A DNA stretch of 64,000 nt from Paracoccus sigandri (GTDB lineage: Bacteria > Pseudomonadota > Alphaproteobacteria > Rhodobacterales > Rhodobacteraceae): assembly GCF_003709565.1 (NCBI RefSeq), contig NZ_QNRC01000003.1:124001-188000 (forward strand), in the 5' to 3' direction. Positions 3,340 through 62,173 of the stretch are shown in pieces (position 1 is the first letter of the stretch; each line of letters opens with the position of its first letter). Below the pieces are notes generated by a model. The model saw nothing but the letters and a program-made list of their open reading frames with translations. It was not told the origin of the DNA and did no database searches. Both the position numbers and the translations under genes were made by a program.

Positions 3340-3374
3340 GTCTGCCTCCTTTCACGGTCGCGACCCGGCGCATG

Positions 3375-5138: not shown

Positions 5139-5140
5139 GA

Positions 5141-6536: not shown

Positions 6537-6554
6537 TTCGCTCACAGCACACCC

Positions 6555-6640: not shown

Positions 6641-6811
6641 CGCAACTGCCGGGCCGATCTGCGTCATCGCATCCCGTTCCCGGCGGACCGGCCTTGCCTC
6701 GGCAGCGTAGCTCGCTCCTGTCATGCCGACCGGCAAGTTCGGATCGGCACCGGGCGAGGATTTGCGCAAGAAGGTCCGGTCAAGATCCGTGGCAAGCACC
6801 CTGCATGCCAG

Positions 6812-43706: not shown

Positions 43707-43794
43707 CAATCAATTTCGATCATATTCAATCATTGTGCAGCTGCAGAAACCGTTTCTGCGACTGAAAATGATTGACAGTGATCGAAAATGATGG
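43707..43794. promoter_or_regulatory. Large inverted repeat plus central palindrome in the rhaD/rhaR divergent region
   Basis: A 29-base arm at 43707-43735 is matched in inverted orientation by 43766-43794; 23 of 29 positions agree, with the blocks AATGATTGA and TGATCGAAA fully conserved. Between them GCAGAAACCGTTTCTGC (43743-43759) is a perfect 17-base palindrome. I infer RhaR (DeoR family) sites in the long arms, controlling both directions. The central palindrome, with odd symmetry about one C, may be for a second regulator. Confidence 0.65.
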
Positions 43795-43820
43795 AGACTG
43801 GTGGCCGAACGGAGGGGCTC

Positions 43821-44627: not shown

Positions 44628-44662
44628 CGCGCGACAAGACAAGGCTCAGAGGGGAGGAACAC

Positions 44663-45655
44663 ATGAGCATTCTGAGAAAGGCGCTGGCCACGGCCGCGAT
44701 GGCCTCGGCCCTGATGGCGGGGGCGGCGCAGGCCGAACAGCTGCGGATCGCGCTCGTCGCCAAGGCGCTTGGCATCGGCTTCTTCGAGGCCGCCAACAAG
44801 GGCGCGCAAGAGGCGGCGGCCGAGCTGGGCGATGTCGAGATCATCTATACCGGCCCGACCGACACCACCGCCGAAGGCCAGATCGAGGTCATCAACAGCC
44901 TGATCGCGCAGCGGGTGGACGCGATCGCCGTCAGCGCCAACGACACCGACGCGCTGGTGCCGACGCTGAAGCGCGCGATGGATCGCGGCATCACCGTCAT
45001 CAGCTGGGACAGCGGCGTCGCGCCCGAGGGGCGGCAGATGCACCTGAACCCGTCCTCGGCACCGCTGATCGGCAACATGATCATCAAGCTGGCCGCGGAC
45101 GAGCTGCCCGAGGGCGGCGATGTCGCGGTCCTGTCGGCCACCACCACCTCGACCAACCAGAACACCTGGATCGCCGAGATGGACAAGATCAAGGGCGACT
45201 ATCCCGACATCAATGTCGTGGCGACGGTCTATGGCGACGACCTGGCCGACAAGTCCTATCGCGAGGCGCAGGGGCTGATGCAGTCGCATCCGGACCTGAA
45301 GGCGATCATCGCCCCGACCTCGGTGGGCATCGTCGCCGCCGCGCAGGCCGTCACCGATGCCGGCAAGGTGGGCCAGGTGAACGTGACCGGGCTTGGCCTG
45401 CCCTCGGAAATGGCCGGGCATGTGAAATCGGGCGCCTCGAAAAGCTTCGCGATCTGGAACCCGATCGACCTGGGCTATTCGGCGACCATGATCGCCTATC
45501 ACCTGGCCAAGGACCACGCCACCGCCGAGCCGGGCGCGACGATCCCCATCGGCCGGATGGGCGAGGTGGTGCTGGACGACAATGCCGAGGCGGCGATGGC
45601 CGATCCCTTCGTCTATGACGAAACGAATATCGACGAGTTCAGCAGCGTCTTCTGA
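44663..45655 (+). CDS. rhaS: Rhamnose ABC transporter, periplasmic binding protein
   Basis: A 330-residue protein with a signal peptide ending near 'MAGAAQAEQ' (about residue 25) and a type I periplasmic-binding fold ('LRIALVAKALGIGFFEAANKGA', 'GPTDTTAEGQIEVINSLIAQRVDAI'). Belongs to the RbsB/XylF-like cluster that includes rhizobial RhaS. GGGGAGGAAC precedes ATG 44663. It is 35 bases after rhaR and followed by a hairpin before the ATPase gene. Confidence 0.9.
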   Translation: MSILRKALATAAMASALMAGAAQAEQLRIALVAKALGIGFFEAANKGAQEAAAELGDVEIIYTGPTDTTAEGQIEVINSLIAQRVDAIAVSANDTDALVPTLKRAMDRGITVISWDSGVAPEGRQMHLNPSSAPLIGNMIIKLAADELPEGGDVAVLSATTTSTNQNTWIAEMDKIKGDYPDINVVATVYGDDLADKSYREAQGLMQSHPDLKAIIAPTSVGIVAAAQAVTDAGKVGQVNVTGLGLPSEMAGHVKSGASKSFAIWNPIDLGYSATMIAYHLAKDHATAEPGATIPIGRMGEVVLDDNAEAAMADPFVYDETNIDEFSSVF

Positions 45656-45666
45656 GCCCTGTCCCC

Positions 45667-45691
45667 GGCCCGGCGGCCGCTTCGCCGGGCC
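45667..45691 (+). terminator. Hairpin between rhaS and rhaT
   Basis: GGCCCGGCG (45667-45675) pairs perfectly with CGCCGGGCC (45683-45691). Hairpins after binding-protein genes commonly protect the upstream mRNA or reduce read-through, giving more binding protein than ATPase. Confidence 0.5.
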
Positions 45692-45715
45692 GACCCATCC
45701 CGAAGGACCAGTCCC

Positions 45716-47242
45716 ATGCAAGCCACGCCCCCGGCCGCAGACGGCGCCCCGGTGCTGTCGCTGCGCGACATCGTCAAGACATTTCCCGGCGTCAGGGCGC
45801 TGAACGGCGTGCGGCTGGACCTGTTCCCCGGCCAGGTCACCGCGCTGATCGGCGAGAACGGCGCGGGAAAATCGACCATCGTCAAGATCCTGACCGGCAT
45901 CCATCAGCCCGACGAGGGGCGGATCATCGTCGATGGCACGGAAACCCGCTTCCCGACCGCGCAGGCGGCAGGGGCGGCCGGGGTGACGGCGATCCACCAG
46001 GAAACCGTGCTGTTCGACGAGATGACCGTGGCCGAGAACATCTTCATCGGCCACGCCCCGCGCACGCGCTGGGGCCTGATCGACCGCCGCGCCATGCGCC
46101 GGCGCGCGAAGGAAATCCTGGCCGGCATCGGCGCCGACCTGAACCCGGCTGCGCGGCTGCGCGACCTGGGCATCGCCAGCAAGCACCTGGTCGCCATCGC
46201 CCGCGCGCTGTCCATCGACGCCCGCGTGGTCATCATGGACGAACCCACCGCGGCCCTGTCCCACAAGGAGATCGCCGAGCTTTACGAGCTGGTCGAGAAG
46301 CTGAAGGCGCAGGGCAAGGCGATCCTGTTCATCAGCCACAAGTTCGACGAGATCTTCCGCATCGCCGACCGCTGGACCGTCTTCCGCGACGGCGCCTTCG
46401 TGGCCGAGGGGCTGATGGCCGAGGCGACCGAAGCCGGGCTGGTGCGGATGATGGTCGGCCGGTCCGTCGACCAGATCTATCCCAAGCGCCCCGCCCGGAT
46501 CGGCCCGCCGGCCCTGACCGTCGCCGGCTACTGCCACCCCACCGAATTCGAGGACATCACCTTCACCCTGCACCAGGGCGAGATCCTCGGCTTCTACGGC
46601 CTTGTGGGCGCCGGGCGCTCCGAGGTGATGCAGGCGCTGTTCGGCATCACCCGGCCCTCGAAGGGCGCCTGCCGCCTGGGCGATCAGGTGCGCGTCATCC
46701 GCTCGACCGCCCAGGCGGTGGCGGCGGGCATCGTCTATGTCCCCGAGGATCGCGGCCGGCAGGGCACGGTCAAGGGCCTGCCGATCTTCCAGAACGTCAC
46801 CCTGCCCTCGCTGGCGCGGACCAGCCGGGCGGGTTTCCTGCGGCTGGCCGAGGAATTCGCGCTGGCCCGCGAATACACGCAGAGGCTGGATCTGCGCGCC
46901 GCCAGCCTGGACCAGGACGTGGGCCTGCTGTCGGGGGGCAACCAGCAGAAGGTGGTGATCGCCAAATGGCTGGCCACGAAGCCGCGCATCATCATCCTGG
47001 ACGAGCCGACCAAGGGCATCGACATCGGCTCGAAGGCCGCCGTCCACGACTTCATGTCGGAACTGGCCGCCCAGGGGCTGGCCGTCATCATGGTCAGCAG
47101 CGAGATCCCCGAGGTGCTGGGCATGTCCGACCGCGTCATCGTCATGCGCGAAGGCCGCATCGCCGCCGAATTCACCGGCGATGACATGACGCCCGAAAAC
47201 CTGGTCCGCGCCGCCGTGGGCATCGAAGGAGCCGCCGCATGA
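45716..47242 (+). CDS. rhaT: Rhamnose ABC transporter ATPase (RbsA-type, double domain)
   Basis: A 508-residue ATPase with two ABC halves. Half 1: Walker A 'GENGAGKST', Walker B 'VVIMDEPTAAL'. Half 2: degenerate Walker A 'GLVGAGRSEV', intact signature 'LSGGNQQKVVIAKW' and Walker B 'IIILDEPTKGID'. In half 1 the signature segment 'LRDLGIASKHLVAIARAL' is degenerate. This split of one degenerate site per half is normal for RbsA/XylG types. Drives RhaP and RhaQ. Confidence 0.93.
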   Translation: MQATPPAADGAPVLSLRDIVKTFPGVRALNGVRLDLFPGQVTALIGENGAGKSTIVKILTGIHQPDEGRIIVDGTETRFPTAQAAGAAGVTAIHQETVLFDEMTVAENIFIGHAPRTRWGLIDRRAMRRRAKEILAGIGADLNPAARLRDLGIASKHLVAIARALSIDARVVIMDEPTAALSHKEIAELYELVEKLKAQGKAILFISHKFDEIFRIADRWTVFRDGAFVAEGLMAEATEAGLVRMMVGRSVDQIYPKRPARIGPPALTVAGYCHPTEFEDITFTLHQGEILGFYGLVGAGRSEVMQALFGITRPSKGACRLGDQVRVIRSTAQAVAAGIVYVPEDRGRQGTVKGLPIFQNVTLPSLARTSRAGFLRLAEEFALAREYTQRLDLRAASLDQDVGLLSGGNQQKVVIAKWLATKPRIIILDEPTKGIDIGSKAAVHDFMSELAAQGLAVIMVSSEIPEVLGMSDRVIVMREGRIAAEFTGDDMTPENLVRAAVGIEGAAA

Positions 47243-48228
47243 GCCTGCTGAAATCACGCGAGGCGATCCTGGCGCTGGCCATCCTGGCGCTGCTGGGGCT
47301 GATCGCCAGCCGCTTTCCCTCCTTCGTCAGCCCGCGCAGCCTGGCGCGGGTGCTGACCGACACCTCGCCGCTGATCCTGCTGGCGCTTGGCCAGATGGCG
47401 GTGATCCTGACCAAGTGCATCGACCTGTCGGTGGCGGCCAACCTGGCGCTCTGCGGCATGGTCGCGGCGCTGCTGAACGGGGCGGGCGTGCCGCTGCCGC
47501 TGATCCTGCTGGCGGTGATCGCGCTTGGCGCGGCGCTTGGCGCCTTCAACGGGGTGCTGGTCTGGAAGCTGGGCATCCCCTCGATCGTGGTGACGCTGGG
47601 AACAATGACCATCTATCGCGGCACGATCTTTTTGCTGACCGGCGGCGCATGGGTCAACGCCCACCAGATGAGCGCGGCCTTCAAGGCCTTCCCGCGCACG
47701 GTCATCGCCGGCCTGCCGGTCATGGCCTGGATCGCCGTCGCGGTGACGGCGGGCTTCGCGCTGCTGATGACCCGCACGCCGCTGGGGCGCGCCTTCTACG
47801 CGGCGGGCGGCAATCCCCATGCGGCGGTCTATACCGGGATCTCGGTCGGGCGGACGCAGTTCCTGGCCTTCGTGCTGGCCGGGGCGCTGGCCGGGCTGAC
47901 CGGCTATCTGTGGGTGGCGCGCTATGCGGTCGCCTATGTCGACATCGCCGGCGGGTTCGAGCTGGACGTGGTCGCCGCCTGCGTGATCGGAGGCATCGCC
48001 ATCGCCGGGGGCGCGGGCACCGTCGCGGGCTGCGTGATGGGGGCGCTGTTCCTGGGGATCATCAAGAACGCCCTGCCGGTGGTCGGCATCTCGCCCTTCT
48101 GGCAGATGGCGATCTCGGGCAGCGCGATCCTGATCGCCATCGCCTTCAACGCCGCCAGCCGGCGCGAGCCGGGCCGGATCATCCTGAAGAAGGCCGAAGC
48201 CCGCCAGCTGCAGGAGGCCGGCCAATGA
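47239..48228 (+). CDS. rhaP: Rhamnose ABC transporter permease
   Basis: A 329-residue permease of the RbsC/XylH type with eight to ten membrane helices. The family runs 'LAALN/AFNGVLVWKLGIPSIVVTLGTMTIYRG' and 'DVVAACVIGGIAIAGGAGTVAGCVMGALFLG' are both present. Overlaps the ATPase stop and the second permease start by four bases each. Confidence 0.92.
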   Translation: MSLLKSREAILALAILALLGLIASRFPSFVSPRSLARVLTDTSPLILLALGQMAVILTKCIDLSVAANLALCGMVAALLNGAGVPLPLILLAVIALGAALGAFNGVLVWKLGIPSIVVTLGTMTIYRGTIFLLTGGAWVNAHQMSAAFKAFPRTVIAGLPVMAWIAVAVTAGFALLMTRTPLGRAFYAAGGNPHAAVYTGISVGRTQFLAFVLAGALAGLTGYLWVARYAVAYVDIAGGFELDVVAACVIGGIAIAGGAGTVAGCVMGALFLGIIKNALPVVGISPFWQMAISGSAILIAIAFNAASRREPGRIILKKAEARQLQEAGQ

Positions 48229-49244
48229 GCCCGCATGATTCCCGCCTTCCCGACCACCCGACGACCGCCGGCCGCCACATCCCCGATCGCCTGACCAGCC
48301 CCGCCGCCCGCGCGCTGAAAAGCTGGGAGGCGCTGCTGCTGGTCGTGGCCATCGCCATCTTCATCATGAACGCGATGGCCTCGCCCTGGTTCCTCGATCC
48401 GTGGAGCCTGTCGGACGCCACCTTCAACTTCACCGAAAAGGCGATGATCGCCTTCGCCATGGCGATGCTGATCGTGGCGGGGGAAATCGACCTGTCGGTC
48501 GGCGCGATCATCGCGCTGGCCTCGACGGTGATGGGGGTGGCGATGTCGGCGGGGGCGCCGGTGCCGGTGCTGGTTCTGCTGGGGCTGGGCACCGGGCTGG
48601 CCTGCGGCGCCTTCAACGGGCTTCTGGTGGCGCGCTTCGGCCTGCCCTCGATCGTCGTCACCATCGGCACGATGAGCCTGTTTCGCGGCATCAGCTATAT
48701 CGTGCTGGGCGACGGCGCCTTTACCGGCTATCCGGCCGGCTTCGCCTGGTTCGGGCAGGGCTATGTCTTCTGGGTCGTCACGGTGGAACTGGTGATCTTC
48801 GCCCTTGCCGCGCTGGCATTCGGCATCCTGCTGCACCGCACGAATTTCGGGCGCATGGTCTATGCCATCGGCAACAACGCCACCGCCGCGCGGTTTTCCG
48901 GCATCCGCGTGGACCGCATCCGCTTCATCCTGTTCCTGCTGACCGGGCTGATGAGCGGGGTCGCCGCGATCTGCCTGACCTCGCGGCTGGGCTCCACCCG
49001 GCCCTCGATCGCCTCGGGATTCGAGCTGGAGGTGGTCACCATCGTCGTGCTGGGCGGGGTCAGCATCCTCGGCGGGTCGGGGACGATCCCCGGCGTGGTG
49101 CTGGCGGCGCTGGTCATGGGGCTGGTGACCTTCGGGCTGGGGCTGATGAACGTGCCGGGCATCGTCATGTCGATCGTCGTCGGCGCGCTGCTGATCGGCG
49201 TCATCGCCCTGCCGCGCCTGCTGGCCATGGCCAGGGGGCGCTAG
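48225..49244 (+). CDS. rhaQ: Rhamnose ABC transporter permease
   Basis: A 339-residue second RbsC-type permease with '[20 protein letters not shown]' and '[27 protein letters not shown]'. A 45-residue hydrophilic N terminus precedes the first helix. Forms the heterodimeric channel with RhaP. ATG 48225 overlaps the rhaP stop. Confidence 0.92.
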
Positions 49245-49245
49245 G

Positions 49246-49560
49246 ATGCAGAAATACGCCTTCCGCATGATGCTGAAGCCCGGCATGGCCCAGGAATACC
49301 GCCGCCGCCACGACGCGATCTGGCCGGAACTGGCCGAATTGCTGCGCGCGGCGGGGATCCGGGACTACTCGATCCACCTGGACCCGGAAACGGATGCGCT
49401 GTTCGCGGTGCTGTGGCGGCGCGACGATCACGGCATGGACGATCTGCCCGGCCATCCGGTGATGCGGCGCTGGTGGGCGCATATGGCCGACCTGATGCAG
49501 ACCCACCCGGACGGCCAGCCCGTCGCCGTCCCGCTGATCCCGATGTTCCATCTGCCATGA
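49246..49560 (+). CDS. rhaU: L-rhamnose mutarotase
   Basis: A 104-residue protein equal in length to characterised RhaM/RhaU (104 aa). The conserved Tyr-His set is visible: '[13 protein letters not shown]' (Tyr18, His22) and the Trp pair in '[10 protein letters not shown]'. It interconverts alpha and beta anomers of L-rhamnose after import. Starts one base after the rhaQ stop. Confidence 0.92.
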
Positions 49561-50915
49561 CGCGCATCGCCGTCATCGACATCGGCAAGACCAATGCCAA
49601 GCTGGCGCTGGTCGATGCCGCCACCCTGTCCGAGATCGAGGTGGTCACCCGCCCGAACCGCCCCCTGCCCGGCCCGCCCTGGCCGCATGCCGATCTGGAC
49701 GGGCACTGGCGGTTCTTCCTGCACCACCTGGCGGGCTTCCACCAGCGCCACGGCATCGACGCGATCTCGGTCACCACGCATGGCGCCTCGGCGGTGCTGC
49801 TGGACGCGAGCGGAGGCGCGCTGCCGATGCTGGATTACGAACATCCCGGCCCCGATGCGCTGGCCGCCGCCTATGACGCGATCCGGCCCGATTTCGCGCG
49901 CAGCGGTTCTCCGCGCCTGCCCGCCGGGCTGAACCTGGGCGCGCAGCTGCACTGGCTGCTGCATACGCAGCCGGACCTGCGCGACCGCATCGCCCATATC
50001 GTCACCTATCCGCAATACTGGGGCTGGCGCCTGACCGGAGAGCTGGCCAGCGACGTGACCTCGCTGGGATGCCATACCGATCTGTGGGACCCGTGGCGGG
50101 GCGAATTCTCGGAGCTGCCGGCGCGGCTGGGGCTGGCGGATCGGATCGCGCCCGCCCGCCGCCCGGCCGAGGTGCTGGGCCGGCTGCGCCCCTCTGTCGC
50201 GGCGCGGACCGGGCTGCGCGCCGGAACGCCGGTGATGGTCGGCATCCATGACAGCAATGCCTCGCTCTACCCCTATGTGCTTGGCCAGGCGGCGCCTTTC
50301 GCGGTGGTCTCGACCGGGACATGGGTGGTGGCGATGGCGGTGGGCGGGGACCCGGTCGCGCTGGACCCGGCGCGCGACGTCTTGGTGAACGTGAACGCGC
50401 TTGGCCAGCCGGTGCCCTCGGGGCGCTTCATGGGCGGGCGGGAATTCGAGGTGATCCGCGCGGGATCAAACGCCGTCCCCGGCGATGCCGACCGCGCGCG
50501 GGTGCTGCGCGACGGGCTGGCGATCCTGCCCGCGATCGAGCCGGAATCGGGGCCGTTCCGGGGCCGCGCGATGCGCTGGAGCACTGATGCGCACAGCGAT
50601 GGCGAGCGGATGGTCGCGCTGTCCTGGTATCTAGCGCTGATGACCGAAACCTGCCTCGGGCTGGTCGGGGCATGCGGGCCGGTGATCGTCGAGGGCCCCT
50701 TTGCCCGCAACCGCGATTTCCTGGCGATGCTGGCCGCGCGCCACCCCCAGGGCGTGCGCTGCGCCGCCTCCGCCTCCGCGACCGGGACCTCGGCCGGGGC
50801 GGCGATGCTGGCGCTGGACCGCGCGATGCCGGTGCAGACCCGGCCCGTCGCGCCCCCCGCCGATGCCGCGGCCCTGCGCGCCTATGGCGATGCCTGGCAG
50901 GCGGCGCTGGCCTGA
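49557..50915 (+). CDS. rhaK: L-rhamnulokinase (FGGY family)
   Basis: A 452-residue FGGY-family kinase: phosphate loop '[13 protein letters not shown]' at the N terminus, '[12 protein letters not shown]', a second nucleotide motif 'VVSTGTWVV' and 'IVEGPFARN'. Phosphorylates L-rhamnulose for RhaD. In R. leguminosarum RhaK is needed for RhaSTPQ transport as well as kinase activity. Its ATG overlaps the rhaU stop (ATGA). Last gene of the rha operon; convergent with the gene at 50928. Confidence 0.9.
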
Positions 50916-50927: not shown

Positions 50928-52223
50928 CTACCGCAGCGCCTCGGCCACCGGCCGGCGATAGATCAGCCGCGCGGGGACCAGCGACAGGATCAGGCTCAGC
51001 GCCAGCAGCAGCCCGATCAGGCGCAGCTCGACCAGCCCGATCCGGGGCGTCATGGCGATGCCGGTTTCGGCAGAAATCACCGACGAGACGCCGCCCGCCA
51101 CCAGCAGTCCCAGCGGCAGCCCGATCAGCGTGCCCGCCCAGATCAGCAGCGCGACATAGAGCCAGACCGTCAGGAAGATGAACCGCCCCGGCGCGCCCAG
51201 GGCCCGCAGCACGGCAAAGCGCTGCCGCTGCAGGTCCAGGACCGCCAGCAGCCCCGCCAGGATCGCCGCCACCACCAGAAGCTGCGCCGCCAGCGTCAGC
51301 GCCGACATGATCCGCGCCACGTCGCCCAGAAGGCCGTAAAGCTCGGCCAGCACCTCGGCCGGGAAGAAGGCCGTGCTGCCCTCGCCGCGCCAGCGCGAGC
51401 GCAGGTCATAGGCGGCGGCATAGTTTTGGGGCTTGACCACGACCGCCGGGACGCCGGGCAGATGCTGGGCCGCGAAGGGCGGGCCGATGCGCTCGCCCTC
51501 CTCGGGGGCGTGTCCCAGCGGCAGGGAATGGGCGTGCCAGGTATATTCGATTGGCACGATCACCGCCCGGTCCCAGGACGTGCCGGTCGGTTGCATCCGC
51601 CCCACCACCGTCACCGGGTCATGCAGATGCTGATGCGGCTGCTGCGCCTCCTCGGCATGGTCGTCGTCATGCGCATGGCCGTGATCGTCGTCATGGTCGT
51701 GGTCATGCGCGTCCCCGGCATGATCCGCATCGCCCACCTCTCCGGCGTCGCCATGGGCGATGTCGATGGTGGTGCCAAGCGGGATACCCGCCGCCGCGCC
51801 GACCACCGCCTCTTGCCTTGCCGCAAAGAGGCGGCCCTCGGCCAACCCGCCGCCCAGGTGATCCACGAATTCGGCCGTCGTGCCCACCACCTGCCGGCCC
51901 AGATAGCTGTCGCCGAAGCCGATGGGCGCGATGAAATCCGCCCGTTCCTCGGCCATCAGCGCCGCCAGCAGCTCGGGCGACAGCAAGCCGCCCGCGGTCG
52001 GGTCCAGATAGACGACCGAGAACAGCACATCCGTCTGGCTGCCCGGCGCGGCGACGATCAGGTCGAAAGCGTCCGCCGCCGTGCCGCTGCCCTGCCGCAG
52101 CGCGCGTTCCTGCGCGGAAATGGCGATCCCCAGCGCGACGGTGGCGGCGATGATGCAGATAAACAGCAGCGCCGTCAGCCAGCTGCGGCGCAGGGCGGCG
52201 AGGATGATGGGAAAGGGGTTCAC
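50928..52223 (-). CDS. MacB/FtsX-like ABC permease with a His/Asp-rich periplasmic loop
   Basis: A 431-residue permease: one N-terminal helix (about 15-37), a large periplasmic domain, and three C-terminal helices (from about 300). In the periplasmic domain residues 157-201 contain 12 His and many Asp ('DAHDHDHDDDHGHAHDDDHA'), which is a typical zinc-binding run. The neighbouring ATPase and DUF3299 protein recall the Zur-controlled MacB-like operon of Pseudomonas (PA4063-PA4066). Zinc handling in the periplasm or membrane is therefore likely. Overlaps the ATPase gene by four bases. A general lipoprotein-release role is the alternative. Confidence 0.78.
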   Translation of the reverse strand: MNPFPIILAALRRSWLTALLFICIIAATVALGIAISAQERALRQGSGTAADAFDLIVAAPGSQTDVLFSVVYLDPTAGGLLSPELLAALMAEERADFIAPIGFGDSYLGRQVVGTTAEFVDHLGGGLAEGRLFAARQEAVVGAAAGIPLGTTIDIAHGDAGEVGDADHAGDAHDHDHDDDHGHAHDDDHAEEAQQPHQHLHDPVTVVGRMQPTGTSWDRAVIVPIEYTWHAHSLPLGHAPEEGERIGPPFAAQHLPGVPAVVVKPQNYAAAYDLRSRWRGEGSTAFFPAEVLAELYGLLGDVARIMSALTLAAQLLVVAAILAGLLAVLDLQRQRFAVLRALGAPGRFIFLTVWLYVALLIWAGTLIGLPLGLLVAGGVSSVISAETGIAMTPRIGLVELRLIGLLLALSLILSLVPARLIYRRPVAEALR

Positions 52224-52900
52224 GACAGTCTCTCCAGCGCGCCTTGCGCGACCTGCAGGCGGTGGTCGGCCAGGGCGTGGAGCCGGTCGTCATGGCTGGC
52301 CACGATGACCAGCCGGTCCTCGGTCCGGGCCAGGTCCGCCAGCAGCCGCGCCACCTCCGCCCCGGCGGCGGCATCCAGGCTGGCGGTGGGTTCGTCCGCG
52401 AAGATCACCGCCGGGTCGAAGATCAGCGCCCGCGCCAGCGCCACGCGCTGCTGTTCGCCGCGCGACAGCACGGCGGCGGTCTTGCGCCCCATGGGCACGC
52501 CCAGGCGGTCCAGCAGCGCCTGGGCCCGGTCGCGCCGGTCGCCGGCGCGGAAGCTGCCGAACCAGACCGGGGCCAGCACGTTCTCCAGCGGCGACAGTTC
52601 CTCGATCAGGTGGAAGCCCTGGAAGACAAAGCCCGCATTGCGCCGGCGCCATCGGTCGCGCGCGGCCTCGGTCAGAAGCGCGTGATCGGTGCCGTCCCAC
52701 AGGATCCTGCCGGCGCCGGGCGACAGCAGGCCGGACAGCAGGTAGAGCAGCGTCGATTTCCCCGACCCCGAGGCCCCGGAGATCGTCGCCAGCCCGCCCG
52801 ATGCAAGCTCCAGCCGGTCCACGGCGATGATCGTGCGCCGGTCCGCGCCCCGGCCCGCCTGGAAGCGCAGACCATTTACCGACAGGGTCGCGCGGGGCAT
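52220..52900 (-). CDS. ABC ATPase (LolD/MacB type) partner of the His-rich permease
   Basis: A 226-residue ATPase: Walker A 'GASGSGKST', Q-loop 'VFQGFHL', a modified signature 'LSRGEQQRVALARAL' (Arg for the first Gly of LSGGE), and Walker B 'VIFADEPTASLD'. Size and motif set match LolD/MacB-type mechanotransmission ATPases. ATG 52900 is two bases after the DUF3299 stop. Works with the permease at 50928-52223. Confidence 0.85.
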   Translation of the reverse strand: MPRATLSVNGLRFQAGRGADRRTIIAVDRLELASGGLATISGASGSGKSTLLYLLSGLLSPGAGRILWDGTDHALLTEAARDRWRRRNAGFVFQGFHLIEELSPLENVLAPVWFGSFRAGDRRDRAQALLDRLGVPMGRKTAAVLSRGEQQRVALARALIFDPAVIFADEPTASLDAAAGAEVARLLADLARTEDRLVIVASHDDRLHALADHRLQVAQGALERLS

Positions 52901-52902
52901 GG

Positions 52903-53328
52903 TCACAGCCTTCTGTAGGTGATGTCGCGCAGCCGCAGGAAACTGACGAAGCCGGTTTCCTCGTCGGTCTCGAAGCCGGTCTCGAACCGGCCGGTGACGC
53001 GGATCAGGTCGGTATAGCGGACCACCTCGACCGGCCTTTCGGAATAGGCCAGCACGATGTCGATGGGCCATTCGGCCTCGGTCTCGCAGAAGGGGCAGAC
53101 CGACATCGGCCGCCGGGTCAGCACGAAGAAGTCGATCTGGGGCTTCAGCGGCGGCGCCATGTAGCCGGTCATCTGGACCAGCTGCCCGTCCAGCGCGGCG
53201 GCGGCGGGCGTCAGTTCGCGCCCCCGGACATAGAGATCCGCGAAGCGCAACGGCACCGCCTCGGCCAGCGCAAGGCGCGGCTGAAGCAGCAGTGCGGCGG
53301 CGGTGGCGGCGAAGGCGCGGCGGTCCAT
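52903..53328 (-). CDS. DUF3299 family periplasmic protein
   Basis: A 141-residue protein with a signal peptide ending near 'PRLALAEAVP' (Tat-like start MDRRAF). Its 'SVCPFCETEAEWP' (Cys78, Cys81) and 'GYMAPPLKPQIDFFVLTRRP' are the DUF3299 hallmarks. The CxxC pair could bind metal or undergo redox. DUF3299 genes commonly sit beside MacB-like zinc transport genes. First gene of this three-gene unit, 71 bases downstream of phoA in the same direction; no Zur-box-like site is visible upstream. Confidence 0.75.
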   Translation of the reverse strand: MDRRAFAATAAALLLQPRLALAEAVPLRFADLYVRGRELTPAAAALDGQLVQMTGYMAPPLKPQIDFFVLTRRPMSVCPFCETEAEWPIDIVLAYSERPVEVVRYTDLIRVTGRFETGFETDEETGFVSFLRLRDITYRRL

Positions 53329-53356
53329 GGCGGTCTCGGGCTGGGGGAACGGGGCA

Positions 53357-53380
53357 GGCCGCCGGAGGGTTCCGGCGGCC
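53357..53380. terminator. Hairpin between alkaline phosphatase and DUF3299 genes
   Basis: GGCCGCCGGA (53357-53366) pairs perfectly with TCCGGCGGCC (53371-53380) around a four-base loop. No T tract follows in the leftward direction, so it may only partly reduce transcription from phoA into the metal-transport genes. Confidence 0.5.
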
Positions 53381-53399
53381 GCGTCCCTGTCGGGAACGG

Positions 53400-54884
53400 T
53401 CAGTTCGCGGCGCGGTCGTTCAGGGCCAGCGCGTGATCGATGACGTGATAGATCACCTGCTGGTCCAGGATGCCGTGGAACAGATGCGCCCAGGGGCCCT
53501 GCGCCAGGATCGCCACGTCGTCGCCGGCATGGGTCTCGCTTTCCCCCAGCGGCACCAGCGCCTGCTGCAGGAAGTCCGGGTCGGTCGTGTCCACCTCGCT
53601 CAGGTCGGCGCGGGGCTCGTCCAGCCGCGCGCCCGGCCCGTTCATGTAGCCAAGCGTCGTGTAGGGCTTGCCGTCATCGGCCACGCCGGCGATGCCCAGG
53701 ATGTCGTTGCCCCGCTCGGGATAGCCGGCGATGGTGAAGACATGGCTGTGGTCGGCGGTCAGCACGACCAGCGTTTCCTCGGGATCGACGGCGGCCAGCG
53801 CCGCCTCGACCGCTTCGGCCACGGCGATGGTGTCGGTCAGCGCGCGATAGGCATTGCCGGCGTGATGGGCGTGATCGACGCGCCCGCCCTCGACCATCAG
53901 CACGAAGCCGTTGTCGTTCTTCTGCAGCAGTTCGATGGCCTTCACCGTCATCTCGGCGATCGAGGGCTCTCCGCCCGCATCCGTCTCGCGGTCGGCCTCG
54001 TATTGCATGTGGCTGCGGTTGAACAGGCCGAAGGCGCGGTTGACATTGGCCGGGTCGATGGCGTCGAAACCCTCCTGGTTCCAGACATAGACGCCGTCAT
54101 TGTGCCTGGCCTGCCATTCGCCGATCAGGTCGCGGCCATCCTCGCGCGAGCCGGTCTGGGTCTCGTCCTCGGGGTCGGTCTGGTCGGCCAGCATGAAATT
54201 GCCGCGGCCGCCGCCGAAGACGACCTCGAAACCGTCGCCCGCCGGCCAGTCGATCAGCTGGGCGGCGATGTCCTTGCAGCCGTTCTCGCGCGCCTCGTCG
54301 GTCAGGTTGGTGTCGTTTTCCCAGTCGCGCCCGGCGACCTTGGCGAAGGTCGCGGCGGGGGTGGCATGGGTGATGCGCGCGGTCGAGACGATGCCGGTGG
54401 CCAGCCCGGCCTCCTCGGCCTGCTCGAAGATCGTGGTGACCTCGTTGCCGGCCTGGCTGGCGCAGACATCGACCTCGATGCCCTGGGTGACGCCGATGGT
54501 GCCGTTGACCGATTTCACGCCCGAGACCATCGCCGTCGCCGTCGGCGCCGAATCCGCGACCTGCGCGTCATGGGTATAGGTGCGCGACAGCGCCGACCAG
54601 GGCAGCAGCTCCTCGAAGGACAGCCGGTTCGATTCGCCGTCCACGCCCTGCAGCTGGCCTTCCAGGATGCGCGAGGCGGTGATGGTCGGGATCGACAGCC
54701 CGTCGACCACGAACAGGATCACGTTCTTGGCCTGGTTGGTGTTCGGCTGGCGCTCGATCTGCAGGGCAAGCTGCTCGCGCCCTTCGACGAAATAGGAATC
54801 CTCGGCCTGCGGGACGGCCTGCTGGGCCATGGCGGGCAGGGCGAGGGCAAGCAGCGAGGCGCTGCCGAGAAGGGTGACTTTCAT
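53400..54884 (-). CDS. phoA: Alkaline phosphatase (PhoA family)
   Basis: A 494-residue secreted enzyme with a signal peptide ending near 'LPAMAQQ' (about residue 20). Metal Asp61 ('FVVDGLS'), nucleophile Ser112 in 'DSAPTATAMVSGVK' (E. coli Ser102), metal site 'EGGRVDHAHHAGN' and 'TADHSHVF'. The residue aligned with E. coli Lys328 is His, as in most other bacterial alkaline phosphatases. It binds two zinc ions and one magnesium and frees phosphate from monoesters in the periplasm. It is divergent from a Na+/phosphate symporter, which fits joint phosphate acquisition. No convincing Pho box was found. Confidence 0.9.
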   Translation of the reverse strand: MKVTLLGSASLLALALPAMAQQAVPQAEDSYFVEGREQLALQIERQPNTNQAKNVILFVVDGLSIPTITASRILEGQLQGVDGESNRLSFEELLPWSALSRTYTHDAQVADSAPTATAMVSGVKSVNGTIGVTQGIEVDVCASQAGNEVTTIFEQAEEAGLATGIVSTARITHATPAATFAKVAGRDWENDTNLTDEARENGCKDIAAQLIDWPAGDGFEVVFGGGRGNFMLADQTDPEDETQTGSREDGRDLIGEWQARHNDGVYVWNQEGFDAIDPANVNRAFGLFNRSHMQYEADRETDAGGEPSIAEMTVKAIELLQKNDNGFVLMVEGGRVDHAHHAGNAYRALTDTIAVAEAVEAALAAVDPEETLVVLTADHSHVFTIAGYPERGNDILGIAGVADDGKPYTTLGYMNGPGARLDEPRADLSEVDTTDPDFLQQALVPLGESETHAGDDVAILAQGPWAHLFHGILDQQVIYHVIDHALALNDRAAN

Positions 54885-55078
54885 GTCGGATCATCCTGCA
54901 TCTGGGTTCGGCCGCGCCGGATGGCTCGGGCGGCGATGCGGAATGCTTAATGCGGCAATGTAACAGCTTTCTGTCCGTCCCGTGTCGATGTCGCGACGCC
55001 CGAAGGGCGCGCGCTGCGCTTGCATTCCCGCGGGGCTTCGGCGAATTCAGGTCGCACACAGGCTTGCCGGGCGGGACG

Positions 55079-56695
55079 ATGGATATCTGGACGGGACTTC
55101 TTGGCGGCATCGGGCTGTTCCTGCTGGGGATGCGCCTGATGACCGAGGGCGCGACCCTCGCCGCCGGCGAGACCCTGAAATCCGGCCTTGCCGCCGCGAC
55201 CCGGTCGCGGTCGCGCGCCCTGACCACGGGCTTCGTCATCACCGCGCTGGTCCAGTCCTCCAGCGCGGTGACGGTGGCGACCATCGGCTTCGTCAATGCC
55301 GGGCTGATGACCTTTCCCAGCACCGTCTGGCTGATCTATGGCACCAATGTCGGCAACGTCATGACCGGCTGGCTGGTCGCGCTGATCGGCGTCCGGGTCA
55401 GCATCGGCGTCCTGGCCCTGCCGCTGCTGGGCCTGGGCATGGGCGCCTGGGTGCTGGCGCGAAGCCGCCCCCGGATCGCCGGCGCGGGCGAGGCGCTGGC
55501 GGGCTTTGGCGCCTTCTTCCTGGGCATCGACATCCTGCAGGCCAGCTTCGCCGGCCTTGCCCCGCAGGTCGTCGCGCTGACCGGCGGGCTGGCGGACACC
55601 GTCTGGCAACGGCCCGCCTTCCTGCTGCTGGGCATCGTCGTCACGCTGCTGACGCAATCCTCCAGCGCCACCATCGCCATCGTCCTGACCGCCGCCGCGG
55701 GCGGATCGCTGAACCTGGAACAGGCGGCGGCGGCCGTCGTCGGGGCCAGCATCGGCACCACCTCGACCGCGCTTTTCGCGGCGATGGGCGCGACCAGCAC
55801 CGCCAGGCGCGTGGCGGCGACCCATATCGGCTTCAACCTGGTCGCGGGATTGGCGGCCTTCGCCCTGCTGCCGCCGATGCTGTGGCTTTCGGCCGCCATC
55901 GCCGGGGGCACCGGCAACGTGGCGCTGATGCTGGCGCTGTTCCAGACCAGCTATTGCCTGCTGGGCCTTGCGCTGATGGCGCCGCTGACGCCCTGGCTGA
56001 TCCGCTTCCTGTCGGCCCGCTTCCGGCGGCTGGACAAGGCCGCGCCGCCGACCCGCTATCTGGACGCGACGCTGGTCGACCTGCCCGAGCTGGCGCTGCG
56101 CGCGCTGGCGATGGAGATGGACCGGCTGGTCGATGCCAGCTTCGCCCTGGCCCATGACCGGCTGGCCGGGCGCCCGGTCCCGAGTGAGAGCGCGGCGCGG
56201 GTGCTGGCCCTGGGCGATGCGATCCGCGACTATCTGGGTCGGATCAACCTGGGCCAGCTGTCGCCCGCCGCCGTGGATGCGCTGTCCGACACGCTGCGCG
56301 CGCTGCAGCACCTGGAGGAGCTGGCCCAGGCCGCCCGCGCCCTGCCCGACCCGCCGGGCGAGCCGGTGGCCAGCGCCACCGCGCCCGACCTGGCCCGGCT
56401 GATCGAGACCGCGATGCAAAGCTGCACCCAGCTGGATGGCGAGGACGTGGCGGCGCGGCTGGAAAGCATCGGCGCCGACAGCGAAACCATCTACGAGACG
56501 ATCAAGGCGGGCCTGCTGCGCGGCGCGGCCAGCGGCAGGCTGCCCATGGCCGCCGCCGACCACGCCCTGAACTATGCCAGGGAGATCCGCGACCTGGGCG
56601 CGATGGGCCGCAAGGCGCAGCGGCGGCTGGCGCCGTGGCGGGTGACCGACCAGGCCGAGACCGAGGCGCCGGCACCCGAGGCCACCGCCGCCTGA
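55079..56695 (+). CDS. Na+/phosphate cotransporter (NptA/YjbB type) with PhoU-like tail
   Basis: A 538-residue protein: eight to nine membrane helices with the two inverted-repeat signatures 'QSSSA' at 59-63 and 193-197, then a helical PhoU-like domain from about 350 to 520. The family moves phosphate with sodium; YjbB-type members export it. ATG 55079 gives the standard N terminus 'MDIWTGLLGGIGLFLLGMRLMTEG'. It is divergent from phoA, with 194 bases between them. Confidence 0.87.
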   Translation: MDIWTGLLGGIGLFLLGMRLMTEGATLAAGETLKSGLAAATRSRSRALTTGFVITALVQSSSAVTVATIGFVNAGLMTFPSTVWLIYGTNVGNVMTGWLVALIGVRVSIGVLALPLLGLGMGAWVLARSRPRIAGAGEALAGFGAFFLGIDILQASFAGLAPQVVALTGGLADTVWQRPAFLLLGIVVTLLTQSSSATIAIVLTAAAGGSLNLEQAAAAVVGASIGTTSTALFAAMGATSTARRVAATHIGFNLVAGLAAFALLPPMLWLSAAIAGGTGNVALMLALFQTSYCLLGLALMAPLTPWLIRFLSARFRRLDKAAPPTRYLDATLVDLPELALRALAMEMDRLVDASFALAHDRLAGRPVPSESAARVLALGDAIRDYLGRINLGQLSPAAVDALSDTLRALQHLEELAQAARALPDPPGEPVASATAPDLARLIETAMQSCTQLDGEDVAARLESIGADSETIYETIKAGLLRGAASGRLPMAAADHALNYAREIRDLGAMGRKAQRRLAPWRVTDQAETEAPAPEATAA

Positions 56696-56955: not shown

Positions 56956-57783
56956 TCAGGACGGATCGCCCGGCAGGTCCCAGCTTTCCTCGTCGAAGCG
57001 GGTCAGCGCGGCCAGCCGGTCGAAATCCGCCCGCGTCGCGCCAAGGACCGGGAACGGCCTGCCCCCCGCGGCCCCTGCGCCAAGCGGCGCGACGCGCCCG
57101 CCCGCCGCCTCGATCAGCGCATAGGCGGCAAGGCAGTCCCACAGCGACATGCGCGGTTCGGCATAGCCGACCAGCCGCCCCGCCGCGACATAGGCCAGCA
57201 TCAGCGCGCCCGAGCCATAGCGCACCCAGGCCACGCCTGCCGCCGCCAGCTCGCCATGCAGCGCGCCCAGCCTTTCGGGCCGCACCCGGTCATTGGCGCC
57301 CAGCCCCAGAAGGCCGGTGGACAGGTCGAACCGCTCGGTCACCCGGACCGGCCGGCCGTTCAGCGCCGCGCCATACCCGCGCCCGCCAAGGAACATCTGA
57401 TCCAGCACCGGCGCATGGATCGCACCCAGCAGCGGGGCGCTGCCATCCGTCAACCCGATCGAGACGCACCAGCCCGGCAGCCCGGCCAGGAAGGGCGCCG
57501 TGCCGTCGATCGGATCGATCACCCAGGTCAGCCCGCTGGAGCCCGGATCAAGGCCATATTCCTCGCCCAGGATCGCGTCGCCGGGAAAGGCCCGCCGCAG
57601 CGAGTCGCGGATCAGCTGCTCGACCTCGCGGTCGGCGGCGGACACCATGTCGGTCAGCGACCGCTTGGTCTCGATCCCCAGCCGGTCGCGGGTGTGGAAA
57701 TGGCGCAGGGCCAGCGCGCCCGCCTGCCGGGCCAGCGGCTCCAGATGGGCCAGCCGGGCGGCCAGCTCGGTGTCACTCGCCAT
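56956..57783 (-). CDS. Inositol-monophosphatase-family phosphatase
   Basis: A 275-residue phosphatase with the full metal site: 'GEEYG' (Glu74/Glu75), 'DPIDGTAPF' (Asp90, Asp93) and 'SLWDCLAAYALIEAAGG'. Members hydrolyse inositol phosphates, fructose-1,6-bisphosphate, histidinol phosphate or related sugar phosphates. GGAGGTGGTG just before ATG 57783 is a strong ribosome site, so this start is preferred over the ATG at 57798 that overlaps the ATPase stop. It is the last gene of the AfuABC-like operon, which suggests dephosphorylation of an imported sugar phosphate. Confidence 0.85.
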   Translation of the reverse strand: MASDTELAARLAHLEPLARQAGALALRHFHTRDRLGIETKRSLTDMVSAADREVEQLIRDSLRRAFPGDAILGEEYGLDPGSSGLTWVIDPIDGTAPFLAGLPGWCVSIGLTDGSAPLLGAIHAPVLDQMFLGGRGYGAALNGRPVRVTERFDLSTGLLGLGANDRVRPERLGALHGELAAAGVAWVRYGSGALMLAYVAAGRLVGYAEPRMSLWDCLAAYALIEAAGGRVAPLGAGAAGGRPFPVLGATRADFDRLAALTRFDEESWDLPGDPS

Positions 57784-57794
57784 CACCACCTCCC

Positions 57795-58862
57795 TCATGC
57801 GATCAGCGCCACGCCGCCGCCACGGAACTGCAGGCGCACCGGCGACCCCACCCCAAGCGGGACCGAGCTGCGGCCGTCGATCACGAACAGCCGGCCCGCG
57901 GGTCCGTCGATCTCGTATTCGATGCGGTCGCCCTGATAGGCGGCGCTGGCCACGCGGCCCTCAAGCCCGCCATCGCCCTCCTCGCCGTTGCCGGGCTCGA
58001 CGCGGAAGGCATTGGGGCGCACCGCCAGCCGGGCGGGACCGGGGCGGATCCCGCGCGAGGGCAGGGTCAGCCGCGCCCCGCCCACCACGACCAGCGCCTG
58101 GTCCTCGGCCAGGCCAAGCACCTCGCAATCCACGACATTCGCCTCGCCGATGAAATCCGCGATGAATTCCGAGGCCGGCGCCTCGTAAAGCTCTCGGGGG
58201 GTGCCGTCCTGGGCGATCCGGCCGTCCTTCATCACCACGATCCGGTCCGAGACGGCCAGCGCCTCGTCCTGGTCATGGGTGACATAGACCGCCGTGAAGC
58301 CCAGCCGCTGCTGCAATTCGCGGATCTCGGTCCGCACCCGCCGCCGCAGCCGGGCGTCCAGATTGGACAGCGGTTCGTCCAGCAGCAGCACCTGCGGCTC
58401 CAGCACCAGCGCGCGGGCCACCGCGACGCGCTGCTGCTGGCCGCCCGACAGCTCGGACGGCAGCCGGTCGCCCAGCCCCGACAGGCCCACAAGCTCCAAC
58501 CCCTGCCCGGCCGCCAGGCGCGATGCCGCGGGCTTCATGCCGCCCGATTCAAGCCCATAGGCGATATTGTCGATGACGCTCATATGCGGAAACAGCGCAT
58601 AGCTCTGGAAGACCATGGTCACGTCGCGGCGGTTCGCGGGCAGGCGCGTCACGTCCTGCCCGCCGATCAGGATCGCGCCCGCGCTGGGGGTTTCCAGCCC
58701 CGCCAGCATCCGCAGCGTCGTGGTCTTGCCGCAGCCCGACGGCCCCAGCAGCGTCACCAGCTGGCCCGGCGCGATCTTCAGGTCCAGATGCGGGACGGCG
58801 GTAAAGCCCCCGTAATTCTTGCGCACCGCGCGGAACTCGACCGCGCCCCGTTCCGATGTCAT
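57795..58862 (-). CDS. ABC transporter ATPase (AfuC/FbpC/PotA type)
   Basis: A 355-residue ATPase: Walker A 'GPSGCGKTT', signature 'LSGGQQQRVAVARAL', Walker B 'VLLLDEPLSNLD', H-loop 'VTHDQDEA', then a TOBE domain. Overlaps the permease stop by four bases at 58859-58862. A much longer frame upstream of 58862 is only an antisense-like shadow inside the permease gene. Confidence 0.9.
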   Translation of the reverse strand: MTSERGAVEFRAVRKNYGGFTAVPHLDLKIAPGQLVTLLGPSGCGKTTTLRMLAGLETPSAGAILIGGQDVTRLPANRRDVTMVFQSYALFPHMSVIDNIAYGLESGGMKPAASRLAAGQGLELVGLSGLGDRLPSELSGGQQQRVAVARALVLEPQVLLLDEPLSNLDARLRRRVRTEIRELQQRLGFTAVYVTHDQDEALAVSDRIVVMKDGRIAQDGTPRELYEAPASEFIADFIGEANVVDCEVLGLAEDQALVVVGGARLTLPSRGIRPGPARLAVRPNAFRVEPGNGEEGDGGLEGRVASAAYQGDRIEYEIDGPAGRLFVIDGRSSVPLGVGSPVRLQFRGGGVALIA

Positions 58863-61045
58863 GCTGCTGCCTCCGATGCGGCGGGCCGGCGCAGCCTGCG
58901 TTCGCCGACCAGAAGCTGGAAGATGCCGATCACGGCGACCATCACCACGATCAGCACCGAGGAATAGGCGATGGCCACGCCGTATTGGCCGTTCTCGACC
59001 AGCCCGACGATATAGGCGGTCGCCATGTTGTACTTGGCCGAGACCAGGAAGATCACCGCCGAGATCGAGGTGATCGCCCGCACGAAGCTGTAGACCAGCG
59101 CCGCCAGGATCGCCGGGCGCAGCAAGGGCAGGATCACGCGGCGCAGCGTGCGGCCGGAATTCGCGCCCAGGGTCAGCGAGGCCTCGTCCAGGCTGGTGTC
59201 GAGCTGCGCCATGGCCGCCACGCCGCCGCGCACGCCCACCGGCATGTTGCGGAAGACGAAGCAGGCGACCAGGATCAGCGCGGTGCCGGTCATCTGGATC
59301 GGCGGCAGGTTGAAGGCCATGATATAGCTGATGCCGATCACCGTGCCGGGGATGGCGAAGCTCATCATCAGGGCGAATTCGAAGGCGGCCTTGCCGGGGA
59401 AGCGCTGCCGGGCGATCAGCCAGCCGGTCAGCAACCCCACCCCGGCGGTCAGCGGCGCGGCGATCAGCGCGATCGTCATCGTCGTCCAGAAGCTGTTCCA
59501 GGCCACGCCGGTCCAGCGCAAGCCGCCGTCCAGGCTGATGCCGAAGGCGCGGATGTAATGGTCCAGCGTCAGCGTGTGATCCAGCCCCCACAGCTTCACG
59601 AAGCCGCCGAACAGGATCATCGCATAGACGATCACCGTGAACAGGCTCCACAGCGCCACCAGGCCGATGACCGGGGCGGCGACGCGGGCGGGCAGCAGCG
59701 CATGGCGGCCGCCGTCGCCCTTGCCGCCGACGGTCGCGAAACTGCGCCCCGACAGCCACAGCCGCTGCGCCAGGAAGGCCGAGAGCGTGAAGAACAGCAA
59801 GACCGCCGCCAGCACCGCCGCGCGCGAGGGATCGTTCTGCGCGCCGACCACGGAAAAGAAGATCTCGGTCGACAGCACCCCGCCCGAGCCGCCCAGCACC
59901 AGCGGATTGCCGAAATCGGCCATGCTCTCGATGAAGCCGATCAGGAAGGCATTGGCCAGCCCCGGCGCCATCAGCGGCAGCGACACCTTGCGGAAGGTCC
60001 GCCAGCGCCCGGCGCGCAGCGTCTGGCTGGCCTCCTCCATCGCCGGGCTGACGCCCTCGACCACGCCGATCAGCACCAGGAAGGCGATCGGCGTGAAGCT
60101 GAGCACCTGCGCCAGCCAGATGCCGGTCAGACCATAGAGCCAGCGGCCAAGCTCCAGCCCCGTCGCGGCCTCGATCAGCTGGGTCAGCGTGCCGGACCGG
60201 CCCAGCAGCATGGTCAGCGCAAGGCCGACCACGAAGGGCGGGGTGATGATCGGCAGGACGGTCAGCAGCCGCAGCCCCCGCTTGAAGGGAAAGCGGGTGC
60301 GCGTCGCCACCAGCGCGAAGGCCAGCCCCAGCACCGTCGTCGCGCTGGCGGTGCACAGCGCCAGGAACAGCGTCCGCCAGGCCACACCGCATGGCCCGCC
60401 GCCGGTCAGGCAGGACAGGCTCCAGATCTTCGGGTCGCCGATGTTGCGGCGCACGCCCTGGGCGGTGAACGAGCCGTCGAAATCCTGGAAGGCGCCGGTG
60501 AAGATCGACAGGATCGGATAGAAGACGAAGACCGCGACCAGCAGGATCAGCAGCACGATGGCGGTCAGCACGAAGGCGTCGCCCTTCAGCGCCCCCCGCT
60601 CGGCCGCGCCGAAAGAGATCAGGCAGGCGAAGAACAGCCCCAGCATGACCGCGCCGGCGCCGAAGGCGGGCTGGCCCGCGACCTCGCCCAGCAGGCGCTC
60701 CAGAAGGCCCCAGTTCCAGCCGCGCGTGCCGACCGACAGCCCCTCGACCACCAGCCAGGCCAGGCCCAGCACGCCCAGCCGCACCAGCCAGCGGCCGCGC
60801 GCCGCCCCCGAGGGCGCGGTCAGCCGCAACCCCGCCACCGCCGCGACAAGCAGCAGCACCGGCCACAATTGCCAGCGGCCCGCCGCCGCCTGGAACGCCC
60901 CCGGCCACAGGTCCGGCCGAGCCAGCATGTCGCCGATCCAGCCGAAGCCGAAGAAACCGCTGCGTATCTTGTACCAGGGCAGGACCAGCAGGCACAGGAC
61001 CGCGCCCGCCAGAATCAGGTCCAGCCGCCTGTTGTCAGCATTCAT
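58859..61045 (-). CDS. Two-domain ABC permease (AfuB/FbpB type)
   Basis: A 728-residue fused permease with two binding-protein-dependent transport domains. EAA-type loops occur at 'EASQTLRAGRWRTFRKVSLP' and 'EASLTLGANSGRTLRRVILP'. An extra N-terminal block of about 150 residues with four to five helices precedes the first domain, as in AfuB. ATG 61045 is used; an ATG three codons upstream is possible. It pairs with the ATPase at 57795 and the binding protein at 61113. Confidence 0.87.
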   Translation of the reverse strand: MNADNRRLDLILAGAVLCLLVLPWYKIRSGFFGFGWIGDMLARPDLWPGAFQAAAGRWQLWPVLLLVAAVAGLRLTAPSGAARGRWLVRLGVLGLAWLVVEGLSVGTRGWNWGLLERLLGEVAGQPAFGAGAVMLGLFFACLISFGAAERGALKGDAFVLTAIVLLILLVAVFVFYPILSIFTGAFQDFDGSFTAQGVRRNIGDPKIWSLSCLTGGGPCGVAWRTLFLALCTASATTVLGLAFALVATRTRFPFKRGLRLLTVLPIITPPFVVGLALTMLLGRSGTLTQLIEAATGLELGRWLYGLTGIWLAQVLSFTPIAFLVLIGVVEGVSPAMEEASQTLRAGRWRTFRKVSLPLMAPGLANAFLIGFIESMADFGNPLVLGGSGGVLSTEIFFSVVGAQNDPSRAAVLAAVLLFFTLSAFLAQRLWLSGRSFATVGGKGDGGRHALLPARVAAPVIGLVALWSLFTVIVYAMILFGGFVKLWGLDHTLTLDHYIRAFGISLDGGLRWTGVAWNSFWTTMTIALIAAPLTAGVGLLTGWLIARQRFPGKAAFEFALMMSFAIPGTVIGISYIMAFNLPPIQMTGTALILVACFVFRNMPVGVRGGVAAMAQLDTSLDEASLTLGANSGRTLRRVILPLLRPAILAALVYSFVRAITSISAVIFLVSAKYNMATAYIVGLVENGQYGVAIAYSSVLIVVMVAVIGIFQLLVGERRLRRPAASEAAA

Positions 61046-61112
61046 GCGGGCCAATCCGTCGCGTCATCCGAAACGCACCGGGGCGGCATCGGGGCCGTCC
61101 CGGCGCCGCCGC

Positions 61113-62138: not shown

Positions 62139-62173
62139 CGTTTCCCTCCCCTCGCCCCCTGCGGGGCGGCTTC

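Follow-up and report, generated by a model that had tools for sequence, protein, structure and literature searches.

A conserved operon joining a secreted alkaline phosphatase gene to a Zrg-like ABC module

Genes and proteins of the locus

The stretch analysed here, called the window throughout, comprises 64,000 nt of Paracoccus sigandri DNA (genome code G000) and carries on its minus strand an operon that begins with phoA, encoding a secreted alkaline phosphatase of 494 amino acids (aa; 53400..54884). It continues with a gene for a 141-aa exported OB-fold protein, here termed zrgE-like (52903..53328), a gene for a 226-aa LolD-type ATP-binding cassette (ABC) ATPase (52220..52900) and a gene for a 431-aa permease of the FtsX/MacB/LolCDE kind, i.e., type VII (50928..52223). 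Together, phoA and the three genes of this module constitute a conserved four-gene unit. A gap of 71 bases separates phoA from the zrgE-like gene, and the three genes after phoA are tightly packed, with 2 bases between stop and start followed by a 4-base overlap. The genes, their strand, their coordinates and the gap are as described in the original prediction for this DNA, which had proposed a zinc-related role for the module.

The assignment of the window phosphatase to family PF00245 is based on the domain itself (428 bits) together with the motifs VDG, DSAPTA, VDHAHH, TADHSH and ETHAGDD, whose roles as metal ligands we assume from E. coli PhoA; a Sec-like signal was judged by eye. The closest solved structures are animal alkaline phosphatases (up to 394 bits), followed at 117 bits by a group that we take to be E. 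coli PhoA. Module-linked phosphatases fall into two classes, one almost always with THATP and VDH (H type, 79 loci) and one with DATP and DK (K type, 25 loci); the window enzyme, with RITHATP and VDHAHH, belongs to the former. The sequences suggest a likeness of the H class to the animal enzymes, and the K class presumably resembles E. coli PhoA; for K-class PhoA of the genus, the called starts lie too far downstream. The window genome has both classes, the H type in the window and the K type on contig C79 (locus L031). The latter (2942-7600) is a second operon with the presumably E. coli-like phosphatase class and two tandem zrgE-like genes, the second of which (5397-5780) has CSDC instead of CPFC and encodes no obvious signal peptide. 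Elsewhere, other phosphatases were seen near the operon, namely PhoX and a phytase-like esterase, at L202 (3037-5157) and L178 (3608-5047).

For the zrgE-like protein of the window, no Pfam or NCBIfam model scores above its cut-off, and neither single-sequence nor profile searches gave a match in the PDB; only the fold search did. Its predicted model (predicted local distance difference test, pLDDT, 91.8) has PA4066 (4hsp) as best solved match (Foldseek E 2.6e-5), and the VIA aligner likewise ranks 4hsp first (Z 9.9, next 8.9; 2.9 Å across 107 residues). In contrast, the DUF3299 model PF11736 does not match the window protein and matches only two of 57 aligned relatives (window included) at E <= 1, the best value of 0.0064 being below the cut-off. 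By its predicted structure, though not by the Pfam model, the 141-aa protein is an OB-fold partner of the PA4066 (DUF3299) kind, so that the earlier label DUF3299 holds for the fold and fails for the family. The protein has a twin-arginine-like signal; twin arginines lie within the first 25 residues of 91 of 111 distinct zrgE-like proteins, some of them with mis-called starts, and the Pfam Tat signal model matches nine of 57. A CPFC pair at residues 78-81 (53086..53097) is invariant in both alignments (A1, A2) and kept in all 111 distinct proteins.

The ATPase contains PF00005 (ABC_tran, 97.7 bits), and its best NCBIfam model is LolD, at 161.7 bits below the cut-off of 307.75. The permease matches PF02687 (FtsX) with 30 bits (cut-off 25.5), and its predicted model (pLDDT 90.7) finds LolCDE and MacB as best Foldseek matches. 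The designation MacB-like is therefore appropriate at the level of the superfamily, but the ATPase is separate and LolD-like. Three residues, H157 (51753..51755), D218 (51570..51572) and H232 (51528..51530), are invariant in an alignment of 62 permeases, comprising 47 PhoA-linked and 15 Zrg-linked ones. The permease also carries a His-rich stretch (residues 157-201, 51621..51755), and the reported 12 His in 45 residues are indeed there; it is mostly of low model confidence (block means 47-55) and is predicted to be disordered. The original prediction had laid stress on this loop. Across the 37 permeases of the genus, however, the highest His count per 50 residues varies from 3 to 20; as the stretch is variable among relatives in the genus and beyond, we rejected it as a conserved functional feature. 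At locus L186 (Spirochaetales), a 274-aa protein that is very rich in His and has no Pfam match is encoded directly 3' of the permease (9556-10380).

Linkage of the module to alkaline phosphatase

Among 125 Paracoccus genomes, 36 carry the 141-aa protein, at 38 places, two of which are the tandem pair on C79 of the window genome. Stretches of 8.5-13.4 kb around every place except the window gave 36 loci, or 37 with the window. In all 37, an alkaline phosphatase adjoins the 141-aa protein, accompanied by ATPase and permease genes, which are divergent at L047. PF00245 was found in 56 of the 125 genomes, comprising all 36 with the 141-aa protein vs 20 of the 89 others (Fisher 3e-17, a value that ignores kinship). 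We checked 20 stretches from 18 of these 20 apparently module-less genomes (G093 and G099 were left out). One of them, G121 (L085), contains the entire cassette in broken frames though it was counted as module-less, and at two others (L083, L084) the contig ends too near phoA for judging the presence of the module. The remaining solo phoA stretches have no zrgE-like or permease match, and three have a lone distant ABC ATPase match. The module accompanies PhoA, yet PhoA does not require the module. At L085, L033 (G091) and L036 (G023), the operon or phoA is split over several reading frames, these copies being decayed or poorly sequenced.

A fair test of linkage came from 349 evenly sampled Pseudomonadota genomes, only 10 of them positive. 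Matches to the zrgE-like protein occurred in 14 of the 349, 10 strong and four weak (E 8e-5 to 6e-4). The four weak-match genomes have no PF00245, and two of these matches are also weak DUF3299 matches. Strong places number 11 across the 10 strong genomes (the C79 tandem paralogue not counted), and each stands beside a PF00245 match. Ten lie less than 300 bp from it, and the place on C79 is separated from it by the tandem paralogue and the end of phoA.

A scan of GTDB found at least 554 relatives, of which the best 80 were kept by likeness to the PhoA-linked alignment, a choice biased toward linkage. PhoA lies upstream of the module in 75 of these best 80 loci, in three of the 75 cut by a contig end. 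Two loci (L179, L244) whose contigs are cut just before the phoA position stand outside the assessable set, which leaves 75 of 78, or 70 of 73 without L168-L172, five loci from the same genomes as genus loci. The PhoA-linked loci span several phyla and include Synergistaceae, Sporomusa, one Spirochaetales and one Deinococcales metagenome-assembled genome. Absence of phoA beside the module in other genomes had been named as a finding that would speak against the original prediction; the co-occurrence counts in the genus (37/37), at the strong places (11/11) and in the GTDB loci (75/78) all point the other way.

The zrgE-like tree shows one change of phosphatase class (H/K), the permease tree two and the ATPase tree three; all are quick trees made without a mixture model and with long-branch warnings. 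Shuffling gave a mean of ~21-22 changes for the zrgE-like and permease trees, with none of 500 shuffles as low as observed. This co-diversification can be explained by old vertical linkage without protein contact, and it also fits contact.

The modules with a DUF3299 gene are sisters of the window type. DUF3299 (PF11736) was found in 76 of the 349 genomes; PF00245 is present in 27 of these too, and in none of them do the two lie within 5 kb of each other (neighbourhoods of DUF3299, ZrgA and PhoA in this sample were read by eye from compared tables). Of 30 DUF3299 loci of 3.4 kb each, 28 match the window-type permease with 44-172 bits and none has a PhoA match within that length. Strong ZrgA (PF10986) matches (E < 1e-20) occur in 54 of the 349 genomes, and in 52 of these DUF3299 lies within ~4 kb. 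No ZrgA was found in the 10 cassette genomes including G000, compared with 54 of 339 others, a difference that alone is not significant (p 0.37). The linked partner is the zinc-binding protein ZrgA for DUF3299 modules and alkaline phosphatase for window-type modules.

Around the 80 GTDB loci, no group of neighbouring genes is present in more than 11, the largest consisting of ABC ATPases. A His-rich PCuAC-like protein, from a family of metal chaperones, is encoded near the operon in 10 of the 80 loci (seven on the same strand; Pfam-checked for four), and a TlpA-like thioredoxin gene in six (Pfam-checked for L205 only). No MacA- or TolC-like genes were recognised among the 22 neighbour groups at the operon, a few of them Pfam-checked, and no genome-wide search was made. 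L210, a Beijerinckiaceae module, has no PhoA match across its 14.4-kb locus, and the gene after the module is presumably pyrroloquinoline quinone (PQQ)-dehydrogenase-like. At L237, a motif pointed to a calcineurin-type phosphoesterase as the upstream gene; searches of Pfam, NCBIfam and PDB did not support this, and we do not claim it.

In the window, a Na/Pi cotransporter gene (55079-56695, plus strand) is divergent from phoA. Beyond it, at 56956-62189 on the minus strand, an inositol-monophosphatase-family enzyme adjoins an ABC uptake cluster with a PhnS2-like binding protein scoring below the model cut-off, a candidate for organophosphate or phosphonate uptake. On the other side, genes for a DeoR-type regulator, a sugar ABC importer, a mutarotase-like protein and an FGGY kinase (43788-50915, plus strand) are convergent with the permease gene and resemble what we take to be a rhamnose-type sugar cluster.

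Zur sites, Pho boxes and the intergenic hairpin

The matrix for Zur rests on 36 sites located 5' of ZnuA-family genes. Members of this family are present in all 41 genus genomes sampled; copies of a second type have a Zur-like site upstream in 19 of 20 loci, and in a control group of loci for other metal-binding proteins, which we take to be of the Mn type, the pattern occurs in none of 30. Counting sites of >= 15 bits up to 500 bp upstream of phoA, we found them in 14 of 71 GTDB loci vs 14 of 1420 random pieces from the same loci, these pieces being mostly coding and possibly overlapping a true site. Without double-counted genomes, 14 of 66 distinct GTDB loci have a site vs two of 341 upstream regions of neighbouring open reading frames (Fisher 2e-10; the control regions rest on noisy reading-frame calls, and kinship is ignored here too). 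None of 30 pstS promoters has one. In the genus, Zur sites precede three of the 37 operons (L057, L058, L059) and none of 16 solo phoA genes (16 of the 20 stretches were scanned), a contrast too small to mean anything.

For phosphate starvation, a Pho matrix was built from 30 pstS promoters. Boxes of >= 13 bits occur in 24 of the 66 distinct GTDB loci vs six of the 341 control regions, and boxes of >= 11 bits precede 19 of 37 genus loci and six of 16 solo phoA genes. Strong Zur and strong Pho sites stand together at L181, L183 and L209. A footprint alignment upstream of the window phoA yielded only the half site CTGTTACATT in common with the nearest relative, L032, and was not convincing.

Between phoA and the zrgE-like gene of the window lies a G+C-rich hairpin with a 10-bp perfect stem (53357..53380, minus strand). 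Among phoA-zrgE gaps of at least 25 bases, 86 of 97 contain a perfect stem of >= 9 (G-U allowed), compared with 6.6 expected from mononucleotide shuffles. The hairpin may be a leaky terminator, or it could fix how much module is made relative to phosphatase.

Possible function and relation to known systems

Among exported zinc enzymes, alkaline phosphatase is the textbook example, and it is usually assumed to take up zinc unaided. We propose that the four genes work as a unit, in which a secreted zinc-dependent alkaline phosphatase has its own ATP-driven zinc supply module, and give this reading a probability of roughly 45%. The zinc link is supported by the Zur boxes before the operon in some loci and by the homology to the Zur-controlled Zrg and PA4063-PA4066 systems, zinc-starvation modules to which this one is related. 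The clustering of the phosphatase gene, in many unrelated bacteria, with genes for a membrane ATPase machine and a small helper akin to zinc-starvation proteins suggests a dedicated supply for this enzyme, with zinc as the inferred cargo delivered to the phosphatase. The original prediction is partly supported, its idea on phoA and zinc being good and its stress on the His-rich loop not. The permease would carry no solute across the membrane but would pass ATP-driven movement to its periplasmic domain, as in MacB and LolCDE. The disordered His-rich stretch and a putative site around the invariant H157, D218 and H232 would capture zinc, which would then pass, aided by the OB protein, to apo-phosphatase fresh from export. 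Through the hairpin that follows phoA, the amount of the module would stay below that of the phosphatase. A phosphate-starved cell makes much phosphatase, and a matched zinc supply would allow its maturation when zinc is scarce. We also consider a bolder version, which for the time being is doubtful: a metal insertase of the envelope that is powered by ATP and dedicated to one client, in which a type VII ABC machine and the exported, CPFC-bearing OB protein would load zinc into PhoA, the versions with ZrgA and with PhoA being two forms of a single machine that differ by a swap of the periplasmic client.

Several observations weigh against a dedicated zinc supply. Many genomes with PhoA do without the module, as 20 of 56 in the genus have no detected zrgE-like protein and 64 of 74 in the sample of 349 have no strong zrgE-like match; conversely, L185, L210 and L237 contain the module with visible upstream sequence but no PhoA there. 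The matrix scan found no Zur box at the window operon, and most other loci likewise lack a site by this matrix (52 of 66 in GTDB, 34 of 37 in the genus). The Pho-box-like site 5' of the window phoA (54960..54977, minus strand) is weak, its 9.1 bits being reached by 5.8% of random control pieces. The His-rich stretch is unconserved, and a redox role is just as conceivable for the CPFC motif. Four or more T follow the hairpin in five of 18 printed gaps, so that transcription could end before the module. Finally, the related PA4064/PA4065 of P. aeruginosa have been interpreted as a cobalt-pyochelin exporter (PMC11481552).

The module might instead acquire periplasmic zinc for the whole cell in the manner of Zrg, without acting on PhoA, and sit with phoA solely because abundant phosphatase synthesis drains zinc. 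Its Zrg relatives support growth in low zinc (PMC9820375, PMC9817125), and the upstream Zur boxes and the homologous permease would be expected of such a system. We nevertheless regard this as unlikely. The zrgE-like tree tracks the phosphatase class; ZrgA is missing from all 10 cassette genomes, though this is not significant alone; and a ZnuA-family protein is already present in every sampled genome of the genus, mostly under a Zur-like site in the second-type copies, as given above.

A role in maturing or releasing the phosphatase without zinc, be it folding, disulfide handling or release from the membrane or outward, would likewise account for the strong linkage and the co-diversification, and would draw on the LolCDE/MacB fold of the permease, the invariant CPFC pair and the TlpA-like thioredoxin genes near six of 80 operons. 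It leaves the Zur boxes and the zinc-linked relatives unexplained, however, and beyond residue 25, Cys is lacking in 19 of 111 PhoA. A Lol-like release of lipoproteins is disfavoured because the window proteins have no lipobox: none was found in the window PhoA or zrgE-like protein, and a simple pattern fits 0 of 111 PhoA and three of 116 zrgE-like proteins, counts that include some mis-called starts and five genomes counted twice. On balance, we consider zinc-free maturation improbable. Transport of a phosphorus compound or a metallophore such as a cobalt complex, sharing only regulation with phoA, is suggested by the Pho boxes and by the cobalt-pyochelin interpretation of the P. aeruginosa relative (PMC11481552) but is very improbable, given a linkage that is specific to PhoA across both phosphatase classes and several phyla and the lack of any neighbour-gene group beyond 11 of 80 loci.

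With a widespread operon that ties alkaline phosphatase to a zinc-linked ABC module, and that in some species stands behind boxes for both phosphate and zinc starvation, the question of how exported zinc enzymes obtain their metal becomes testable in harmless laboratory strains. The operon is also relevant to the link proposed between the supplies of zinc and phosphorus in marine microbes, and it offers a fresh approach to PA4063-PA4066 and ZrgBC, whose function is unsettled. Searches of open-licence papers with narrow terms found none joining phoA with DUF3299 or Zrg modules in title or abstract, which is weak evidence of absence.

E. coli PhoA belongs to the same family, PF00245, the window enzyme being nearer to the animal phosphatases; we know of no such module in E. 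coli, where no search was made. In Synechococcus, the metallothionein BmtA has been suggested as zinc donor for alkaline phosphatase (PMC9337993). The two cases share the idea of a dedicated zinc-binding protein supplying alkaline phosphatase where phosphate is poor. BmtA is an unrelated protein, however, with a role suggested from abundance trends and no shared operon described in the available portion of that paper (PMC9337993). With MacB and LolCDE, the type VII ABC systems, the window module shares the predicted permease fold and the LolD-like ATPase. In contrast to MacB, the ATPase is encoded by a separate gene and not fused to the permease, and unlike the substrates of LolCDE, the window PhoA and zrgE-like protein have no lipoprotein signal.

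The closest parallels are ZrgABCDE of Vibrio and PA4063-PA4066 of Pseudomonas, which are induced by zinc shortage under Zur and have been read as zinc uptake or as cobalt-pyochelin export (PMC11481552, PMC8561739, PMC9817125, PMC9820375). Zrg systems matter under zinc limitation (PMC9820375, PMC9817125, PMC11481552), and ZrgA is taken as their substrate-binding protein (PMC9820375). The window module resembles them in having a separate ATPase and an FtsX-type permease with a large periplasmic domain, the permease being homologous (28-38% identity over the aligned parts) with invariant H157, D218 and H232, and in its OB-fold partner of the DUF3299 type (by fold), its His-rich stretches and the Zur sites of some loci. 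It differs in that the window operon has no Zur box, unlike the Zur-controlled systems, and in that its OB protein is unmatched by the DUF3299 model and carries the invariant CPFC. An alkaline phosphatase replaces ZrgA as the gene linked to the core.

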